The translations under genes were made by a program, and so were the position numbers. This document shows positions 25,789 to 41,772 of a stretch of 64,000 nt of DNA, piece by piece (position 1 is the stretch's first letter; each line of letters opens with the position of its first letter). The notes beneath the pieces are model-generated. The model worked only from the letters and a program-made list of their open reading frames with translations. It did not search any database and had not been told where the DNA came from. The DNA lies in contig JACIXD010000003.1 of the NCBI GenBank assembly GCA_014360645.1, positions 62,001-126,000 on the forward strand, given 5' to 3'. The stretch is from Actinomycetota bacterium (GTDB lineage Bacteria; Actinomycetota; Geothermincolia; Geothermincolales; RBG-13-55-18).

Positions 25789-25862
25789 TGGGGGATCGTC
25801 TAACGGTAGGACGCGAGACTCTGGATCTCGTTGTGAGGGTTCGAATCCTTCTCCCCCAGCCA
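25789..25862 (+). tRNA. tRNA-Gln (anticodon CTG)
   Basis: Acceptor TGGGGGA pairs with TCCCCCA, and discriminator G and an encoded CCA end the gene. The anticodon stem CGAGA/TCTCG closes the loop CTCTGGA, giving CTG. The T loop is GGTTCGAATC. The first pair is U1-A72, the determinant known to mark tRNA-Gln for bacterial GatCAB amidotransferase. Confidence 0.95.
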
Positions 25863-25882
25863 AAACTGAATATCGAATGCGT

Positions 25883-25960
25883 GGCGCATTAGTCTAGTTG
25901 GCCTAGGACGCCGCCCTCTCAAGGCGGAGATCGCGGGTTCGAATCCCGCATGCGCTACCA
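25883..25960 (+). tRNA. tRNA-Glu (anticodon CTC)
   Basis: Acceptor GGCGCAT pairs with ATGCGCT, with a G-U pair at 1:72; discriminator A and an encoded CCA follow. The anticodon stem CCGCC/GGCGG encloses CTCTCAA, giving CTC. The T arm is GCGGGTTCGAATCCCGC. It lies 20 bases after tRNA-Gln and is surely co-transcribed. Confidence 0.94.
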
Positions 25961-32653: not shown

Positions 32654-33053
32654 GCTGCATCACCGGTCCTCTATGGGTTTGGGCCTCCCCGGAGAAGGCC
32701 GGCACCGGGGGTTCGTGATGCCTTTGGCGTACTCCGCCCCTTTGGCCGCGGCTCGTCCTCCCGCAGAGCGGCCTGAAGAGCCGGGCATGAGGACCGTCGC
32801 CGTGCAGGACGCTTCTCGAGGCACCGCCCCCGCCGCCCCTTCCACACCTCCTCCAACCGCCGCGGGTGGGCGGAGGCCGGCCTCAGCGGGCGCGAGGCCG
32901 TGGCTTCCCCGCTTTTCGGGGGAACCCTCTCTTGCTAACATGTCCCCATGATAAACGGTGCCCGAGCGCGGCGGAAGCGGCGGGGCTCGGGATCCTCTGC
33001 CGCGCCGCGCAAGGGAAGTCGGCGGAGGCGTCCCGGCAAGGTGTGTGGAGGCC
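32654..33053. other. Divergent intergenic region between methyltransferase and sugar kinase
   Basis: 400 bases, GC-rich. It must hold two divergent promoters, but no convincing -35/-10 pair could be read. A TTGCTA at 32932 has only a 12-base distance to GATAAA. No catabolite or XylR-type operator was recognised. Confidence 0.35.
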
Positions 33054-34550
33054 ATGGCCTATCTGCTCGGTTATGACGCGGGGAGTTCTTTCATCAAGGC
33101 GTCCCTGCTGGACGCGGCCACGGGGCGGCAGGTGGCGGCCGCGAGCTCCCCGGATCGGGAGCTGCCCATCGCGGCGGCCCGCCCGGGTTGGGCGGAACAG
33201 GACCCGGAGACGTGGTGGGAGAACCTGGTGCGCGCCACCGCCGTGCTGCGCCGGAAGAGCGGCGCCGAGATGAGTGAAGTGGCCGCGATCGGCATCTCAT
33301 ACCAGATGCACGGGCTGGTGGTGGTGGGCAGGGACCTCAAGCCCCTTCGCCCCTCCATCATCTGGTGCGACTCGCGCGCCGTGGAGGTGGGGGAGAGGGC
33401 GCTGCGCGCGCTGGGCGTAGAGAGCTGCATGGGGCGCCTGCTGAACTCGCCCGGCAACTTCACCGCCTCCAGGCTGGCCTGGCTGAAGGAGAGCGAACCG
33501 GAGCTCTTCCGCCTCGTGCACAAGGCCATGCTGCCCGGGGACTACCTCGCCCTGCGTATGACGGGGGAGGCGGTCACCACCCCCTCGGGCCTCTCGGAGA
33601 TGGTGCTCTGGGATTTCACCGCCGGCGAGGCGGCGGTGATGGTCCTGGAACACTACGGGATCCCTTCCGGGATGCTCCCCGAGGTGAGGCCCACTTTTTC
33701 CGTGCAGGGGGAACTCACCCGCGAAGCGGCCGCGGAGCTCGGCCTGCGCCCCGGCATCCCGGTGGCCTATCGCGCCGGGGACCAGCCCAACAACGCCTTC
33801 GCCCTCGAGGTGCTGGAGCCGGGGGAGGCGGCCGCTACCGCGGGTACTTCGGGAGTCGTCTACGGGGTGTCCGCGGAGCCCCGCAGCGACGCGCGCTCAC
33901 GCGTCAACGTCTTCGTGCACGTGAACCACCGGGAGGAGGACCCGCGCTACGGCGTGCTGATGTGCGTGAACGGCGCGGGCATAACCTACCGCTGGCTCAG
34001 GAGCCTGCTGGGAGGAACGGCGGGAGGACCGGACTACCGGCGCATGGACGAGGAGGCGGCGTCGGCGCCCCCGGGGTCGGAGGGCCTCATGTTCTTTCCC
34101 TACGGCAACGGTTCGGAGAGGACGCTGGAGAACCGCCTGCCCGGGGCCTCCGTGCGCGGACTGGACTTCAACTGTCACCGCCGGCCGCACCTCCTGCGCG
34201 CCGCTCAGGAGGGCGTGGTCTTCGCCCTCCACTACGGCCTGGAGATCATGCGCGCCATGGGGGCCGGGGCGGAGAGGATACGCGCGGGCCGGGCGAACAT
34301 GTTCCTCGACCCCCTCTTCCGCCGCATCTTCGCCGCGGTCACGGGAGCGGCGCTGGAGGTCTATGACACCGACGGCGCCCAGGGGGCCGCGCGGGGCGCG
34401 GGGCTGGGAGCGGGGGTCTTCGCGGACGTTGCGGAGGCCTTCAGGGGGCTGGAGAGAGTGGAGACGGTGGAGCCGGACCCGGACCTGGAGGAGGCTTACC
34501 GCGAGGCGTACGGACGCTGGAAGGCGGAGCTGGAGCGGCAGATGACCTGA
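33054..34550 (+). CDS. xylB: FGGY-family carbohydrate kinase, xylulokinase-like
   Basis: 498 residues phosphorylating a sugar, most likely D-xylulose. The N-terminal domain has YDAGSSFIKASLLDAATG (phosphate-1 motif) and GISYQMHGLVVVG, a xylulokinase hallmark. The catalytic Asp lies in AGDQPNN, and the ATP-binding TAGTSGVVYG and C-terminal GGxxxx regions are present. Its neighbour is a divergent xylose isomerase-like protein, then a GH3 glycosidase, which supports pentose use. The start at ATG 33054 is chosen on homology; the open frame extends upstream without sense. The symbol is tentative. Confidence 0.82.
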   Translation: MAYLLGYDAGSSFIKASLLDAATGRQVAAASSPDRELPIAAARPGWAEQDPETWWENLVRATAVLRRKSGAEMSEVAAIGISYQMHGLVVVGRDLKPLRPSIIWCDSRAVEVGERALRALGVESCMGRLLNSPGNFTASRLAWLKESEPELFRLVHKAMLPGDYLALRMTGEAVTTPSGLSEMVLWDFTAGEAAVMVLEHYGIPSGMLPEVRPTFSVQGELTREAAAELGLRPGIPVAYRAGDQPNNAFALEVLEPGEAAATAGTSGVVYGVSAEPRSDARSRVNVFVHVNHREEDPRYGVLMCVNGAGITYRWLRSLLGGTAGGPDYRRMDEEAASAPPGSEGLMFFPYGNGSERTLENRLPGASVRGLDFNCHRRPHLLRAAQEGVVFALHYGLEIMRAMGAGAERIRAGRANMFLDPLFRRIFAAVTGAALEVYDTDGAQGAARGAGLGAGVFADVAEAFRGLERVETVEPDPDLEEAYREAYGRWKAELERQMT

Positions 34551-34659
34551 CCGCCGCGTAGATGCCGGCCCGCTCTCCGAGCCCTCGCCGTGGAAGGGGC
34601 GGGCCCCATGGCGACAGGGGCCCTCGAGGCAGACATCTGGAAGAAAAAGGAGGCGTGTG

Positions 34660-35799
34660 ATGCGGGAAGAGACCTCTTTTCACAGCATCTGCCGCTGGAC
34701 GTTCCATGCCGGGAAGGGGGGTTTCGTGCCCCCCGACTCCATCCCCGAGTGGGCTGCCCTCGACACCCCGGGATGCGTGGAGCTGGCGGCGAGAGAGATA
34801 AGGCCCCGCCTGCCTGAGCATATCCGCCTGGGCATGGAATTCCATTACGATTACGAGGTGGACGAGGGGAACGCCGGGGAGGTGGCCGACGCCCTGGTGT
34901 CCCACGGCATCCACCTCGCCCTCTTCACCCCCGGAGCCCACCGCCGCTTCGCCTACGGAGGCATCGCCTCCCTGGACGCCGAGGAGCGGAGGGCCGCCGA
35001 GGAGTTCGGCGAGCGCGCGCTGGAGCTGGCCCACGGTCCCCTGCGTCCCGCCTGGCACTCCGAACCCGCTCTGGCGCCCTCCTTCGTGCTCTGGAACGGT
35101 TCATGGGGATACGACCTCGCCAGCGCGGCGGTGGCGGAGATGTACCGCAACCTCAAGGAGAGCGTGGCCGCGCTGTGCCGCCGCGAGGTGGAGATGGGGG
35201 GCGGTATGTTCATGGCCCTCGAGCCCAAGCCCAACGAAGGCCACCCCGCCATGCTCCTCCCCACCGTGGCCAGCGCCATCCTCTTCTGGAAGAAGCTGGA
35301 GGATGAATACGGCGTCGACCTCGCAGGGAAGGGGATAAACAAGGAGTTCGGGCACACGGAGATGGTGGGACTGGACCTCGTCCACGACACCGTGGAGGAG
35401 GTGGACAACGGCATGCTGGTGCACATGCACGTGAACGGCCAGGGTTACAACGACGGCGTCGTCCTGGGCGGTCCGGGCAAGTACGACATCGACCATGGGG
35501 CGCGCATCAACGGCATGAACGTGGCGGTGGCGGGGCTGGCCCTGCGCGCCGGGTACGCGCGCTGGAAAGGTCACGACATGCAGCCGCGCCCCTACGACTG
35601 CCGCGAGCAGGCCGTGGACCGCGTAGTGCGCTCCATCCTCTCCTGGGAGGCCTGCGAGAAGGCGGCGCAGGAGATGGACCACGCCCTTCTCCTGGAATAT
35701 CTTACCAGAAGGGAGACGGCCAAGGCGGAGGACCTGGTGCGCGAGGCGGTAGCTTCCGCCTGGGGCCATTTCAAGCGCATGTACCGGGGAGAGGGCTGA
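34660..35799 (+). CDS. Divergent xylose isomerase-like TIM-barrel protein
   Basis: 379 residues aligned with actinobacterial xylose isomerases. It keeps the catalytic His region as EFHYDYE, the metal/base segment LEPKPNEGH, EFGHTEM and GKYDIDH. Where classical enzymes have a metal-binding Asp in HIDLNGQ, this protein has HMHVNGQ with His257, and the C-terminal arm is shorter. It may isomerise another aldose or have changed metal use. AAAAAGGAGG precedes GTG 34657/ATG 34660. It follows the kinase by about 110 bases and is presumably co-transcribed. Confidence 0.75.
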   Translation: MREETSFHSICRWTFHAGKGGFVPPDSIPEWAALDTPGCVELAAREIRPRLPEHIRLGMEFHYDYEVDEGNAGEVADALVSHGIHLALFTPGAHRRFAYGGIASLDAEERRAAEEFGERALELAHGPLRPAWHSEPALAPSFVLWNGSWGYDLASAAVAEMYRNLKESVAALCRREVEMGGGMFMALEPKPNEGHPAMLLPTVASAILFWKKLEDEYGVDLAGKGINKEFGHTEMVGLDLVHDTVEEVDNGMLVHMHVNGQGYNDGVVLGGPGKYDIDHGARINGMNVAVAGLALRAGYARWKGHDMQPRPYDCREQAVDRVVRSILSWEACEKAAQEMDHALLLEYLTRRETAKAEDLVREAVASAWGHFKRMYRGEG

Positions 35800-35869
35800 G
35801 GAGGCCGGGAGCGGGGCGGGACGCAGGACAGAGGAGAGACGCAGCCCGCGACCGCGCTTGCCGCCGTAA

Positions 35870-36004
35870 CGGTCCGTGCCCGGCGGCGGGATGCGTGAGC
35901 ACGCCCGCTCACACCGTTTTGCAGACCTCGGCGTAACCGCCCCCTCGAGGCAGAGCTATGCGGGTGCGCGGTCCGTGCCCGGCGGCGGGATGCGGAAGCA
36001 CGCC
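35870..36004. repeat. 36-bp direct repeat: extra copy of the GH3 gene's 3' end
   Basis: A 26-base identical block starting CGGTCCGTGCCCGGCGGCGG occurs at 35870-35895 and 35969-35994 (period 99). In both copies, after two differing bases, it continues AGCACGCC. The right copy encodes the last residues of the GH3 protein (CFRIPPPGTDR); the left copy lies downstream of its stop and would still read CSRIPPPGTDR. It looks like a local duplication scar. Confidence 0.8.
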
Positions 36005-38067
36005 GACAGCTTCAGGTCGTCGGAGCGCGAGGAGGGTCCGACGAAGACCCGGTACTCTCCTTCCTCGATCTTCCAGGTGGAGGTGGAGGCGTCGAAATAG
36101 GCGAGGTCCGCGGCCCGCAGCCGGAAGGAAACCGTCTTCTTCTCACCCGGCTCCAGGCGCACACGCGCGAAACCCTTGAGTTCCCTGGGGGGGCGGTCGA
36201 CGGCCGCGGCCGGACAGGACACGTAGAGCTGGGCCACCTCCTCCCCGGAGCGCTCCCCGCGGTTGGCGACGTCGGCCTCCACGGCGATCTCCCCGTCCTC
36301 GTCCATGCCCGAAGCGCTCACCCTGAGGTCGGAGTACTCGTACCTGGTATAGCTCAACCCGAAGCCGAAGGGGTAGGCGGGCCGCATGTCCTCCCGGTCG
36401 AAGAGCCGGTAGCCGTGGTAATATCCGTACTCCGCGGACTCCGCCCTTTTGTCGAAGGGGGGCGGCTGGGCGTTGTCCTCCGGGAAGGTGACGGGGAGCT
36501 TGCCGCTGGGGTTCACCTCTCCGAAGAGGATCTCCGCCAGGGCCCTGCCTCCCTCCATGCCCGGGTACCACGCCACCAGGATGGCCCCGACCTTGTCCCG
36601 CCAGCCCGAGGTGAGGAAGGCGGAACCCGCCTCCACCACCACCACACAGCGGTCCGTGGCCTCCGCCACCGCCTCGATGAGGGCGACGTCCCGGGGTCGC
36701 AGCGAGAGGTCCTCGCGGTCGCCCCCCACCCCCTTCATGTAGGGGATGGACTCCCCTTCGTCCCTGCCGGTGAAGCCCACCACCACCACCGCGGCGTCGC
36801 AGCTCCCCGCCGCCGCGGCGGCCTGGCCGGGATGGGAGCCGTCATGGTAGAGGACCTCCGTCCCGCCCGACAGCTCGCGGATGCCCTGCAGGGGGGTGAC
36901 CACATGGGGCGGCCTCACCCGGCTGCTGCCCTTGTCCCCGATGTTGGGAATATCTGCCAGTCTGCCGATCACCGCCAGCCTTCTGACGGCCTCGCGGTCC
37001 AGGGGGAGGAGCGCGCCCTCGTTCCGGAGCAGCACCATGGACCTGCGTGCCGACTCCAGCGCCAGCGCCGTATGCTCCGCGCACGCCACGCGCAGGCGCC
37101 CGTATAGCGAGGGGTCCCCGACTGCGGCGAAATCAGCCTTTATGCGCAGGATCCTGGTCACCGCCTCGTCGATGAGCGTCTCCGACACCTTTCCCTCGCG
37201 CACCGCCCTTTTCAGTTTGCGCCCGAAGTGGATGCGCAAGGGCATCTCGATGTCCAAGCCCCCCAGGGCGGCCCTCACGGTGTCCCGCGTCCCCCAGAGG
37301 AAATCGGACATCACCGCTCCCCGGAAGCCCCATTCCCCCTTGAGGATGTCGCGCAGGAGGTGCCGGTTGTGGGCGCAGTAGTCCCCGTTGACGCGGTTGT
37401 AGGCGCTCATCACCGCCGCCGCCCCTTCCTCCACGCAGCGTTTGAAATGAGGGAGATAGACCTCGCGCAGGGTGCGCTCGTCCACCCGCACGTCGACGAA
37501 GAAGCGCGACTCCTCGATGCTGTTGCAGGCGAAGTGCTTCACGCATGCCATGACGTGTCTCTGCAGGCCTCTGACCATGGCCGCGCCCATCTCCCCCAGC
37601 AGTAAGGGGTCCTCGCCGAAGGTCTCCTGCGCCCTGCCCCAGCCGGGGTGGCGGGGGAGGTTGATGCACACTCCCCCGAAGAAGTCGGCTCCCTGGGCTC
37701 GGGCTTCTATGCCCATGGCCTCGCCGATGCGTTCCTCCAGCTCCCGGTCCCAGCTCGCCCCCCTGGCCATGGACACGGGGAAACAGGTGGAGTTGCCGAG
37801 GGCCACGCCGCGCGGCCCGTCGGTGAACCTTATGGGAGGGATGCCGAGGCGCCGGTTTCCACCCGCCAGAAAGGGGAAACGGTTGTAATGAAAGATCATG
37901 TAAAGCTGTTTGAAGGGGCTGGTGGTCCCGGACATCTCGCGCACCTTGTCGTCCAGGGACATGTCCGAGACCAGCTCCGCGATGCGCCGCTCGCGCTCCT
38001 CCCCCCGCGCCTCGAGCACGGCCTGCCAGCCTTCATGCCCGCGCTTTTTTCGCCCGGCCAACGACAT
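35956..38067 (-). CDS. Glycoside hydrolase family 3 (beta-glucosidase/beta-xylosidase)
   Basis: 703 residues. An N-terminal GH3 barrel starts after SLDDKVREMSG and contains KHFACNS and VMSDFLWG, whose Asp255 is the expected nucleophile. The alpha/beta sandwich domain (about 330-560) includes GESIPYMKGVGGDREDLSL. A C-terminal fibronectin III-like domain closes the protein (YTRYEYSDLRVS onward). No signal peptide is seen, so it probably acts in the cytoplasm on imported oligosaccharides. It converges with the kinase-isomerase pair, consistent with a xyloside or glucoside substrate. ATG 38067 has GAGGGGGGG before it. Confidence 0.9.
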   Translation of the reverse strand: MSLAGRKKRGHEGWQAVLEARGEERERRIAELVSDMSLDDKVREMSGTTSPFKQLYMIFHYNRFPFLAGGNRRLGIPPIRFTDGPRGVALGNSTCFPVSMARGASWDRELEERIGEAMGIEARAQGADFFGGVCINLPRHPGWGRAQETFGEDPLLLGEMGAAMVRGLQRHVMACVKHFACNSIEESRFFVDVRVDERTLREVYLPHFKRCVEEGAAAVMSAYNRVNGDYCAHNRHLLRDILKGEWGFRGAVMSDFLWGTRDTVRAALGGLDIEMPLRIHFGRKLKRAVREGKVSETLIDEAVTRILRIKADFAAVGDPSLYGRLRVACAEHTALALESARRSMVLLRNEGALLPLDREAVRRLAVIGRLADIPNIGDKGSSRVRPPHVVTPLQGIRELSGGTEVLYHDGSHPGQAAAAAGSCDAAVVVVGFTGRDEGESIPYMKGVGGDREDLSLRPRDVALIEAVAEATDRCVVVVEAGSAFLTSGWRDKVGAILVAWYPGMEGGRALAEILFGEVNPSGKLPVTFPEDNAQPPPFDKRAESAEYGYYHGYRLFDREDMRPAYPFGFGLSYTRYEYSDLRVSASGMDEDGEIAVEADVANRGERSGEEVAQLYVSCPAAAVDRPPRELKGFARVRLEPGEKKTVSFRLRAADLAYFDASTSTWKIEEGEYRVFVGPSSRSDDLKLSACFRIPPPGTDRAPA

Positions 38068-38263: not shown

Positions 38264-38432
38264 GACCGCGTGGCCGCTCGATGGGCCGCGCACGGGCCCC
38301 TTCCCGCGCGGAGAAGGCGGCGCTCGTCGGTGCGTGACCGCGGGAACGCAAGCCGGGGGCCGCGCACGGGCAGAGCGGGGCGTCCAGGGCCTCGAAGGCC
38401 TCATGAAAAGTGCACTCTTACTAAACTAAAAC

Positions 38433-38462
38433 TTGACAATATTTATACGCGATGAATAAAAT
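38433..38462 (+). promoter_or_regulatory. Strong promoter of the acyl-CoA mutase operon
   Basis: Consensus TTGACA at 38433-38438, an 18-base spacer and TAAAAT at 38457-38462, in the most AT-rich stretch of the neighbourhood. Transcription should start near 38469. This favours ATG 38518 over the in-frame ATG at 38452 as the mutase start. Confidence 0.75.
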
Positions 38463-38517
38463 AACATCGGCTGTCTATGGGAAAACCGCAGGATCCAGAG
38501 CCAAGGGGGCTGCCGCC

Positions 38518-40206
38518 ATGTTCATGGAAGACGAGCTTGAGGCCATCCGCAAGACCCGCGAGGAGTGGGAACTCACCGTGCTCGGTCCCATCATGGAGAG
38601 ATGGCCCGAGCGCAAAGAGGAATTCAGGACCCAGTCGGGTCATCCCGTGCAGAGGGTCTACACCCCGGAGGACATCGCGGGCAAGAGCTACGTGCGGGAC
38701 ATCAGTTTTCCGGGCTGGTACCCATTCACCCGCGGGGTGTTCCCAACCGGGTACCGCGCCAACCTATGGACGCGGCGGCTGATCACCGGGCTGGCCACCC
38801 CCGAGGAGACCAATAAGCGCCTCAAATTCCTCATCGAGCAGGGCCAGACGGGACTGAACATCATCTACGACAACCCCACCACCAACCTGCTGGACTCCGA
38901 CAATCCCCTGTGCGAGGGGGAGGTGGGCAGGGACGGAGTCCCCACCTGCACCCTGCGGGACATGGAGGTGATCATGGACGGCATCGATATGGAGAAGGTG
39001 TCCACCTCCATCATCCACTCCGGGCCCTTCATCCTCTCCATGTACCTCGCCCTCGCCGAGAAGAGGGGGGTCCCCTTCGATCGCCTGCGGGGCACGCTGC
39101 AGAACGACGTCCTCTCGCAGTACTACACGGTGAACATGTCCGTGGTGAGCCTGCGTGACGGCTTCCGGCTTTCGGCCGACGTGGTGGAGTACTGCCGCAA
39201 GCACGTGCCGCGCTGGAACCCCATCAGCTTCGTGGGCTACCAGATACGCGAGGCGGGGAGCACGGCGGCGCAGGAGATCGCCTTCGCCATCGGCAGCGCC
39301 ATCGGGTACACGGAGGAGCTGATGGGCCGGGGCATGGACGTGGACGACTTCGCGCCCCGCCTCTCCTTCATGTTCAACTGCCACAACGACTTCTTCGAGG
39401 AGATATGCAAGCTGCGGGCGGCGCGGCGGCTGTGGGCGCGCATCATGAGGGAGCGCTTCGGGGCCAGGAACCCCCTCTCGTGGCTGCTGCGCTTCCACGT
39501 GCAGACGGCGGGGAGCTCACTCACCGCCCAGCAGCCCATCAACAACGTCATCCGCACCACCATCCAGGCCCTGGCGGCGGTGTTGGGCGGGACCAACTCC
39601 CTGCACACCAACTCCATGGACGAGTGTTACTGCCTGCCCTCGGAATACGCCGCGCGCACCGCCCTGCGCACCCAGCAGATCATCGCCTACGAGAGCGGGG
39701 TGGCCAACACCGTGGATCCCCTGGCGGGCTCCTATTTCGTGGAGAAGCTCACCGACGACATCGAGGCGGAGGCGGAGGATATCCTGCGCCAGATCGACGA
39801 CATGGGCGGCATGGTGGCGGCGCTGGAGGCGGGTTGGGTGCAGCGGGAGGTGGTGAAGGCCTCCAACGAGTACCACCGCAAATTGAAAGCGGGGGAGATC
39901 GCCGTGGTGGGGGTGAACATGTTCCAGGACAGCGAGGACGAGGAGGTCCCCATCGAGATCCTGCGCATCGATCCCGCCCACGAGAGGCACCAGGTGGAGA
40001 TGCTGCGACAGGTAAAGGAGCGCCGCGACGGGGAAGCTCTGCGGAGGGCGCTGGAGAGGATGAAAGAGGACGCCGCCGCCCACCGCAACATCGTGCCCTC
40101 GTGCATGGAGGCGGTGAAGGCCTACGCCACCCTGGAGGAGATGCGCAACGCCCTGCAGGAGGCCCTGGGCGCCGGCAAGGAGAGCAAGGACGCCTTCATC
40201 TGCTGA
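38518..40206 (+). CDS. Coenzyme B12-dependent acyl-CoA mutase, large subunit, atypical active site
   Basis: Radical 1,2-carbon-skeleton mutase catalytic subunit (562 aa) of the MutB/HcmA/IcmA class, whose B12 domain is a separate protein here. Fold motifs are clear: TRGVFPTGYRANLWT, GQTGL, GTLQND, AGSTAAQEIAF, LRAARRLWA, GGTNSLHTNSMDE and DPLAGSYFVE. The specificity positions differ from methylmalonyl-CoA mutase. Tyr89 is Ile89 (RRLITG for RQYAG), Ala116 is Ile116, Arg207 is Val205 and His244 is Gln242 (GYQIREAG for GYHMQEAG). Loss of the Arg that holds the free carboxylate argues against methylmalonyl-CoA. The Ile at 89 recalls 2-hydroxyisobutyryl-CoA mutase, but that enzyme's Asp117 is absent. 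The true substrate is unknown. AAGGGGG precedes ATG 38518. Confidence 0.9.
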   Translation: MFMEDELEAIRKTREEWELTVLGPIMERWPERKEEFRTQSGHPVQRVYTPEDIAGKSYVRDISFPGWYPFTRGVFPTGYRANLWTRRLITGLATPEETNKRLKFLIEQGQTGLNIIYDNPTTNLLDSDNPLCEGEVGRDGVPTCTLRDMEVIMDGIDMEKVSTSIIHSGPFILSMYLALAEKRGVPFDRLRGTLQNDVLSQYYTVNMSVVSLRDGFRLSADVVEYCRKHVPRWNPISFVGYQIREAGSTAAQEIAFAIGSAIGYTEELMGRGMDVDDFAPRLSFMFNCHNDFFEEICKLRAARRLWARIMRERFGARNPLSWLLRFHVQTAGSSLTAQQPINNVIRTTIQALAAVLGGTNSLHTNSMDECYCLPSEYAARTALRTQQIIAYESGVANTVDPLAGSYFVEKLTDDIEAEAEDILRQIDDMGGMVAALEAGWVQREVVKASNEYHRKLKAGEIAVVGVNMFQDSEDEEVPIEILRIDPAHERHQVEMLRQVKERRDGEALRRALERMKEDAAAHRNIVPSCMEAVKAYATLEEMRNALQEALGAGKESKDAFIC

Positions 40207-40286
40207 ACGGCCGGGCCGGGGCGGGCAACCCCCGGAGACGGGCGGCCGGAGAGGTAAAGCACGCGAGACGAGGGGAAAAAGGGGTC

Positions 40287-40724
40287 ATGACCATGGAGGG
40301 AAAACCGATCAGGGTACTGCTGGCCAAGGCGGGGCTGGACGGCCACAACCGCGGTATCCAGCTGGTGGGCAAAGCGCTGCGGGATGCCGGCATGGAGGTG
40401 CTCTACGGCGGCCTGCGCATCACCCCGCAGGAGGTGGTGGAGATGTCCATCCAGGAGGACGTGGACGTGGTGGGCATCAGCATCTTCTCTGGCGGGCTCA
40501 TGACCATCATACCCAAGATATTCCATGCCCTGCAGGACAACGATGCCACCCGCCACATCCCCATGATCGTGGGAGGGATCCTGCCTCCCCGCGATGCGGA
40601 GACCCTCAAGGCCATGGGGATAAAGGAGGTCTTCGGCCCCGGCAGCGACCTCGAGGACATCGTCGCCTGCATCCGGGAGCTGGCGGCCGAGGGCGCGAGG
40701 AAGGAGAGGGCGGCCTCGGGTTGA
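40287..40724 (+). CDS. B12-binding small subunit of the acyl-CoA mutase
   Basis: 145 residues, the cobalamin-binding Rossmann domain that completes the preceding large subunit. DGHNRG supplies the DxHxxG motif whose His replaces the lower axial ligand. GISIFSGG and VGGILPPRDAETLKAMGIKEVFGPGS are the usual nucleotide-loop signatures. ATG 40287, after GGGGAAAAAGGGG, is chosen. It lies 80 bases downstream of the large-subunit stop, the normal arrangement of two-subunit mutases. No MeaB/ArgK chaperone or methylmalonyl-CoA epimerase is nearby. Confidence 0.92.
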   Translation: MTMEGKPIRVLLAKAGLDGHNRGIQLVGKALRDAGMEVLYGGLRITPQEVVEMSIQEDVDVVGISIFSGGLMTIIPKIFHALQDNDATRHIPMIVGGILPPRDAETLKAMGIKEVFGPGSDLEDIVACIRELAAEGARKERAASG

Positions 40725-40908: not shown

Positions 40909-41772
40909 ATGAAGCATACTCCCGGGGTCAAGCCGGTCATCTTCGCCGCCGCCGCCTGCGCCGCGGCAGCGGCTTCGTGGCGCTGGAGGTCCAGGGTGAT
41001 GCCGAGGCGAGACCCCGCGCAGCGCCGCTTCCGGGATTTCACCCTCACCACCTCCGACGGAGTGAGGATCGCCGCCAGGCACATCGAGGGCGCGGGAGGA
41101 GCGGCGCTCATCGTCGCCCACCCCGCGGTGACCGGGCAGCGCTACGCGCCCCTGGTGGATTTCGCGGAGGCCGCAGCGGAACATTTCGACGTCTTCACCT
41201 TCGATTTCCGCGGCCACGGGGGCAGCGGGGGGCGGCTGGAGATGAACCTCGGCGGCCCGCTGGAGGACCTGCGCGCGGTGGTACACGAGGTGCGCGGACG
41301 GGGATACGAGTGGGTCGGGGCGGTGGGGTTCTCCCTGGGGGGCATGGCGGCCTTTCTCCTCGCCTCCCTGGACGGGGACCTGGACGCGGTGGTGACGGTG
41401 GGCGCTCCGCCCGCGCTTCCGGACATCACCCCCTACCGCCGCTTGCTGCCGCTGTGGTCGCTGTTCCTGCGCTTCCTGGGGGCACGGTTCAGGGCCGTGA
41501 ACGAGGGAGGCCCCCTCCCCCTGGAGGCGGCGGCGTGCTTCCCCGCCGTCCCCCTGCTGGTGGTGCACGCCGAGAACGAGGCCTTCTACTCCCGATGCGA
41601 CCTCGATGCCATGCTGGGAATACTTGGCAACAAGGCCGAGTTCATGCTCGTGGAGGGGGCCGGCCACACCGAGCTGGCGGGCAGGGAGGGGGAGGTGCTG
41701 GAATGGCTGGTGGCAAGGTCGCCCCGTGGGATCCGTGCGGGAGGGTGGGGAAGCGCGAGAGGCGCGAGGTGA
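40909..41772 (+). CDS. Alpha/beta hydrolase, probably membrane-anchored
   Basis: 287 residues. An N-terminal hydrophobic Ala-rich segment (about 8-24) precedes the hydrolase core. The oxyanion region is IVAHPAVTGQ, FDFRGHGGSGGR follows, the nucleophile elbow is GFSLGG, and the catalytic His is in GAGHTEL. This is the generic hydrolase fold of esterases, thioesterases and lipases; the substrate is not assignable. It follows the acyl-CoA mutase subunits by 184 bases and might belong to the same pathway, but the hairpin at 40877-40901 suggests separate control. The C-terminal Arg/Gly tail is low complexity. Confidence 0.78.
   Translation: MKHTPGVKPVIFAAAACAAAAASWRWRSRVMPRRDPAQRRFRDFTLTTSDGVRIAARHIEGAGGAALIVAHPAVTGQRYAPLVDFAEAAAEHFDVFTFDFRGHGGSGGRLEMNLGGPLEDLRAVVHEVRGRGYEWVGAVGFSLGGMAAFLLASLDGDLDAVVTVGAPPALPDITPYRRLLPLWSLFLRFLGARFRAVNEGGPLPLEAAACFPAVPLLVVHAENEAFYSRCDLDAMLGILGNKAEFMLVEGAGHTELAGREGEVLEWLVARSPRGIRAGGWGSARGAR

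Follow-up and report, generated by a model that had tools for sequence, protein, structure and literature searches.

A conserved variant of the B12-dependent acyl-CoA mutase family in Candidatus Geothermincolales, with aliphatic pocket residues and glutamine in place of the catalytic histidine

The window, as we term the whole stretch of 64,000 nucleotides analysed here, lies on contig 3 of a 3.38 Mb host genome and carries a two-gene acyl-CoA mutase unit, with mutS directly 3' of mutL as at every locus of the window group. Its features are listed below; pocket positions are numbered by P. shermanii methylmalonyl-CoA mutase (MCM), following alignment to the 1REQ, 2XIJ and 4R3U sequences, and are set beside isobutyryl-CoA-mutase-like enzymes (ICM-like), 2-hydroxyisobutyryl-CoA mutase (HCM) and Xanthobacter Xaut_5043, which together with Xaut_5044 we take to be pivalyl-CoA mutase.

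38433..38462, + strand: sigma-70-like promoter TTGACA-N18-TAAAAT, 11 of 12 matches
38518..40206, + strand: mutL, acyl-CoA mutase large (substrate/TIM-barrel) subunit, 562 aa (PF01642, TIGR00641)
38782..38784, + strand: codon of Ile89 (Tyr89 in MCM, Phe in ICM-like, Ile in HCM, Leu in Xaut_5043)
38863..38865, + strand: codon of Ile116 (Ala in MCM and ICM-like, Asp in HCM, Leu in Xaut_5043)
39130..39132, + strand: codon of Val205, aligned to MCM Arg207 (alignments)
39241..39243, + strand: codon of Gln242, aligned to catalytic His244 (alignments, motif scans)
40287..40724, + strand: mutS, B12-binding small subunit, 145 aa, with a DGHNRG (DxHxxG) motif (TIGR00640, PF02310)
40909..41772, + strand: alpha/beta hydrolase, conserved neighbour (PF00561/PF12146)

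Profile searches bear out the preliminary description in calling the large subunit a clear member of the MutB family, with scores of 640 bits against PF01642 (cut-off 22.1) and 624 bits against TIGR00641 (cut-off 303.8). The small subunit scores 139 bits against TIGR00640 and 75 bits against PF02310, and an alignment that includes the small subunits of HCM and PCM among others identifies its DGHNRG as the DxHxxG motif, such that both hallmarks of the superfamily are present: a TIM-barrel mutase domain above curated cut-offs and a B12-binding subunit with DxHxxG. The span 38518-40724 originally described does hold both subunits, but the large one stops at 40206, and it is the small one that runs to 40724. 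The top PDB sequence match of the large subunit is 4r3u (HCM; E 4e-153), which is also the first match for its predicted fold (E 4e-37, probability 1.00). The AlphaFold model has a mean pLDDT of 67.9 and is weak at residues 28-91, where part of the pocket lies, and modelling of the pocket from the predicted structure was dropped for this reason.

In scans that took in the whole window except its last 1500 bases, TTGACA-N18-TAAAAT was the top sigma-70-like match, in keeping with the earlier claim that the mutase has the strongest promoter in the window. Its hexamers and spacing are the same in all six loci of the window family (6/6), whereas the spacer sequence differs. Since this promoter covers the upstream ATG at 38452, the start at 38518 is favoured, as first described, and is the likely start of mutL. 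A/T-rich ACTAAA-type elements recur at the conserved promoter, immediately 5' of its -35 and overlapping its -10, both in the window (38398-38470) and in the regions upstream of loci L056, L060, L061, L068 and L072, and could possibly form an operator. No cobalamin riboswitch was found upstream of the mutase; the RNA features of the window are two adjacent tRNA genes only (25789-25957, + strand).

To our knowledge, only a handful of carbon-skeleton rearrangements are known for the B12 radical mutase family, and substrate choice in acyl-CoA mutases has been traced to few pocket positions. In P. shermanii MCM, Arg207 and Tyr89 bind the substrate through its free carboxylate, whilst His244 hydrogen-bonds the migrating thioester carbonyl. 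The window pocket reads Ile89/Ile116/Val207/Gln244, and the alignments agree with the preliminary description that all four specificity positions are changed, with window residues 205 and 242 standing at 207 and 244. Position 207 is Arg in MCM, Gln in ICM-like enzymes and HCM, Asn in Xaut_5043 and Ala in a sister group described below; the full Ile/Ile/Val/Gln set, said at the outset to match no described type, was seen in no other group examined. Its most unusual change is the loss of His244, which the preliminary description had given too little weight. Elsewhere, Arg87, Ser164, Thr195, Gln197, Tyr243, Arg283, Ser285, His328, Gln330, Asn366 and Glu370 of MCM are retained, and because the cofactor positions and most CoA positions are thus kept, the protein looks like a working adenosylcobalamin (AdoCbl) mutase. 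Three more changes set the group apart: Arg82 has become Asn, Lys or Ser, and both Leu119 and Gln361 have become Asn. Asn114 and Asn119 are polar gains. Given the changes at 82 (a CoA contact in MCM) and 361, CoA binding may differ from that of MCM.

The four pocket residues are invariant in all ten genomes with the gene, comprising the window and nine orthologues that are 71-97% identical to the window protein, and all ten belong to one order, Candidatus Geothermincolales; the 97% orthologue belongs to G002, a genome assigned to the same genus as the window. Between the window gene and five closer orthologues dN/dS is 0.05-0.17, and mutL is evidently under purifying selection. This selection, together with invariance across ten genomes, suggests that the pocket is more than a product of chance. 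We scanned 84,980 species (one genome per species) with a DNA pattern encoding S-[IVF]-x-G-Y-Q-x-R-E preceded by two less strict positions. The scan returned 21 loci, every one a mutase; Gln244 proteins whose flanking residues differ would escape it. These fall into the window group, a sister group with Phe89/Ala116/Ala207/Gln244 from other Geothermincolia and Deltaproteobacteria (including a Desulfobacterales MAG), and two isolated cases. The first of these (L071:5767-7458) is a Planctomycetota ICM-like mutase (Phe/Ala/Gln) outside the Gln244 clade, apparently an independent His244-to-Gln change; the second (L073:4510-6080) is an MCM-like gene with Gln at 244, split across two frames in a Clostridiales MAG; either the gene is broken or, as the other probable cause, the sequence contains an error. 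Among 397 Actinomycetota genomes, there was no match at E <= 1e-178 outside the class Geothermincolia. Relatives at 50-53% identity in the phylum of the Desulfobacterales MAG were considered as the same enzyme and rejected, as 30 of 30 have Tyr/Ala/Arg/His or Phe/Ala/Gln/His; in-frame stops suspected in some of them proved absent from the tblastn-aligned mutase stretches (0 inside).

Four trees were built, three of them without the pocket columns, at sizes including 46 rows (all columns), 42 rows and 64 rows. The window group forms its own clade at 100/100 in all four. The two Gln244 groups join in a single clade (95/99; 46 rows, all columns), which persists without the pocket columns and long branches (91/82 with 42 rows; 98/91 with 64 rows). 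None of the MCM, HCM and ICM-like clades tested takes in the window enzyme, which in the 64-row tree is also outside every Tyr/Arg clade. A position within a characterised clade that shares its residues had been named beforehand as the result that would count against a distinct enzyme; the analysis was run and gave no such placement. Xaut_5043 is too divergent to place, with a p-AU of 0.34 for a clade with the window group. In the 64-row tree the Gln244 clade adjoins HCM and a haloarchaeal mutase (98/94), yet lies outside HCM, whose rows are a separate clade at 100/100. This adjacency, the Ile89 common to HCM and the polar gains at 114 and 119 could point to a hydroxyacyl-CoA mutase of the HCM lineage, in which Asn114 or Asn119 would bind the substrate hydroxyl in place of Asp116. 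We consider this unlikely: the defining Asp116 has become Ile and Gln207 has become Val, and the window unit has neither the acyl-CoA ligase nor the MeaB that adjoin the mutase at HCM loci.

The same genes flank the mutase unit across the window family, and none are acyl-CoA enzymes: GH3, xylose-isomerase-like and FGGY kinase genes on one side, and hydrolase, cupin, hisG, GGDEF and hisC on the other. The former make up a sugar cassette (window 32958-38067; FGGY kinase, xylose-isomerase-like protein and a divergent GH3 glycosidase) that stays beside the mutase in the family. In two Geothermincola genomes, with short contigs, mutL and mutS were the only ones found of the window genes tested. The alpha/beta hydrolase, noted earlier as following the mutase, is indeed a conserved neighbour, but its distance from mutS varies too widely across genomes (0.19-1.6 kb) for an operon partner; for that reason the transcription unit is probably mutL-mutS alone, with the hydrolase probably outside it. 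Operon logic was accordingly set aside as a guide to function for the window group, its syntenic neighbours being unrelated to acyl-CoA metabolism and the gap so variable. The mutase unit itself contains no pathway genes.

At the level of the host genome, a lack of MeaB nearby had been offered as a substrate clue, which does not hold: it is not diagnostic, because the genome has a single strong MeaB match away from the mutase locus. No methylmalonyl-CoA epimerase match above the curated cut-off was found anywhere in the genome. This bears on the reading of the protein as an ordinary MCM with unusual residues, which we regard as highly improbable and the least likely of the rivals; general models do label the protein MCM family, but Tyr89 and Arg207 are both gone, the enzyme falls outside every Tyr/Arg clade, and the genome has no such epimerase match. 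Three further PF01642 mutases are encoded in the genome. One (L003; G000:C6:51849-53411) has Phe89/Ala116/Tyr207/Asn244 (TTYNYRE), with Asn for the catalytic His, in an operon (L050:5320-11857) with TetR-like, thioesterase-like, SDR and acyl-CoA-dehydrogenase-like genes; matches at 43-45% from other members of the class may be related to it. The genome's fourth mutase (L004; G000:C9:33338-34972) retains Tyr/Ala/Arg/His, has an insertion before residue 89, lacks the HTN motif and carries Pro near 366, like ethylmalonyl-CoA mutase.

The Phe/Ala/Ala/Gln sister group is 50-54% identical to the window group and has in common with it Gln244, Asn114, Asp139 and a one-residue deletion near 165. It differs in Phe89/Ala116/Ala207 and in lying within catabolic operons with MeaB, whereas mutL-mutS stands alone in the window group. 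Deltaproteobacterial loci (L086, L087, L088, L089) place mutL, mutS and MeaB amid thiolases, an HMG-CoA-synthase-like protein, acyl-CoA dehydrogenases, enoyl-CoA hydratase, 3-hydroxyacyl-CoA dehydrogenase and acyl-CoA ligase; lipid-transfer-type thiolase genes also occur there, with a keto-acid-cleavage-like enzyme in one genome. Those of Geothermincolia (L044, L047, L049, L090) have GlcD-like oxidases, enoyl-CoA hydratase, SDR, a partial aldehyde:ferredoxin oxidoreductase match and HdrA. Operons of this beta-oxidation type would fit catabolism of acids that need rearrangement before beta-oxidation. The metabolic setting and own MeaB of this Gln244 clade also weigh against the window protein being a non-catalytic member of the family that, having lost His244, now has a binding or regulatory role. 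Replacement of the catalytic His, altered positions 82 and 361 and a solitary unit without pathway genes would all suit such a role, but with strong purifying selection, cofactor residues and a small subunit in every genome and a conserved promoter, we think it quite unlikely.

Judged by its sequence, the window protein is a real, conserved and phylogenetically separate variant within a known enzyme family. It probably works as a heteromeric AdoCbl mutase on a hydrocarbon-like acyl-CoA with no free carboxylate, shifting the thioester carbonyl group from one carbon to its neighbour. Replacement of Tyr89 and Arg207 by aliphatic residues makes a dicarboxylic substrate unlikely, and with the pocket's charged contact lost and the catalytic His changed to Gln, a non-acidic acyl-CoA is probable. 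The part of the original substrate claim that denied a free carboxylate is supported; that the substrate is hydrophobic we infer from the pocket. In the most likely reaction, a branched hydrocarbon acyl-CoA would undergo a radical 1,2-shift of its thioester group, proceeding through AdoCbl homolysis, hydrogen abstraction by 5'-deoxyadenosyl and migration as in MCM. Gln is a hydrogen-bond donor and not a proton donor, and Gln244 would offer the thioester carbonyl a hydrogen bond with no acid role, whilst Ile89, Ile116 and Val207 would form an aliphatic wall suiting a branched alkyl group. Candidate pairs are pivalyl/isovaleryl, 2-methylbutyryl/valeryl, isobutyryl/butyryl or a larger branched chain, and the genome's single MeaB would serve the enzyme from elsewhere. 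In MCM, removal of His244 strongly lowers turnover, so turnover by the window enzyme could be slow, or its substrate could be of another type. More tentatively, and a little short of an even chance, it may represent a new subfamily that combines catalysis by Gln in place of His244 with a branched or bulky hydrocarbon acyl-CoA unused by characterised mutases, making, with the sister group, two new activities. Conserved natural enzymes without His244 offer a direct test of the need for this residue in acyl-CoA rearrangement; combined with an aliphatic pocket, they make the family's rules of specificity and mechanism directly testable. An all-aliphatic pocket in an enzyme from a hot-spring lineage would also be a useful start for branched-acid biocatalysis.

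Set against known mutases, the window enzyme lacks the MCM signature of Tyr89 and Arg207, having Ile89 and Val207 in 10/10 genomes, and Gln for His244. Ethylmalonyl-CoA mutase is a MeaA-type fused protein with Tyr89/Arg207/His244 and so differs in both residues and architecture (33% identity between the window large subunit and Ruegeria MeaA). The ICM-like group (Phe89/Ala116/Gln207/His244; 49% identity to the window), which includes host paralogue L001, is similarly heteromeric with the logic of a non-carboxylate pocket, but is a separate clade with all four positions unlike the window, where the signature Phe89 and Gln207 are Ile and Val; the window enzyme lies outside the Phe/Ala/Gln/His clades. 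HcmA (4R3U; M. petroleiphilum; Xaut_5021), the nearest solved structure to the large subunit, has separate subunits and Ile89 as does the window enzyme, at 45% identity and in a neighbouring clade; the HCM signature of Ile/Val89 with Asp116 is nevertheless incomplete, as Asp116/Gln207/His244 of HCM stand against Ile/Val/Gln. Xaut_5043 (Leu89/Leu116/Asn207) is 37% identical to the window protein and keeps His244, with Gln243 and Asn207, but is likewise heteromeric, without Arg207 and aliphatic at 89 and 116. Not all of the family's known substrates are thereby set aside for the window enzyme, and, by analogy, the pocket of pivalyl-CoA mutase is best read as its closest counterpart.
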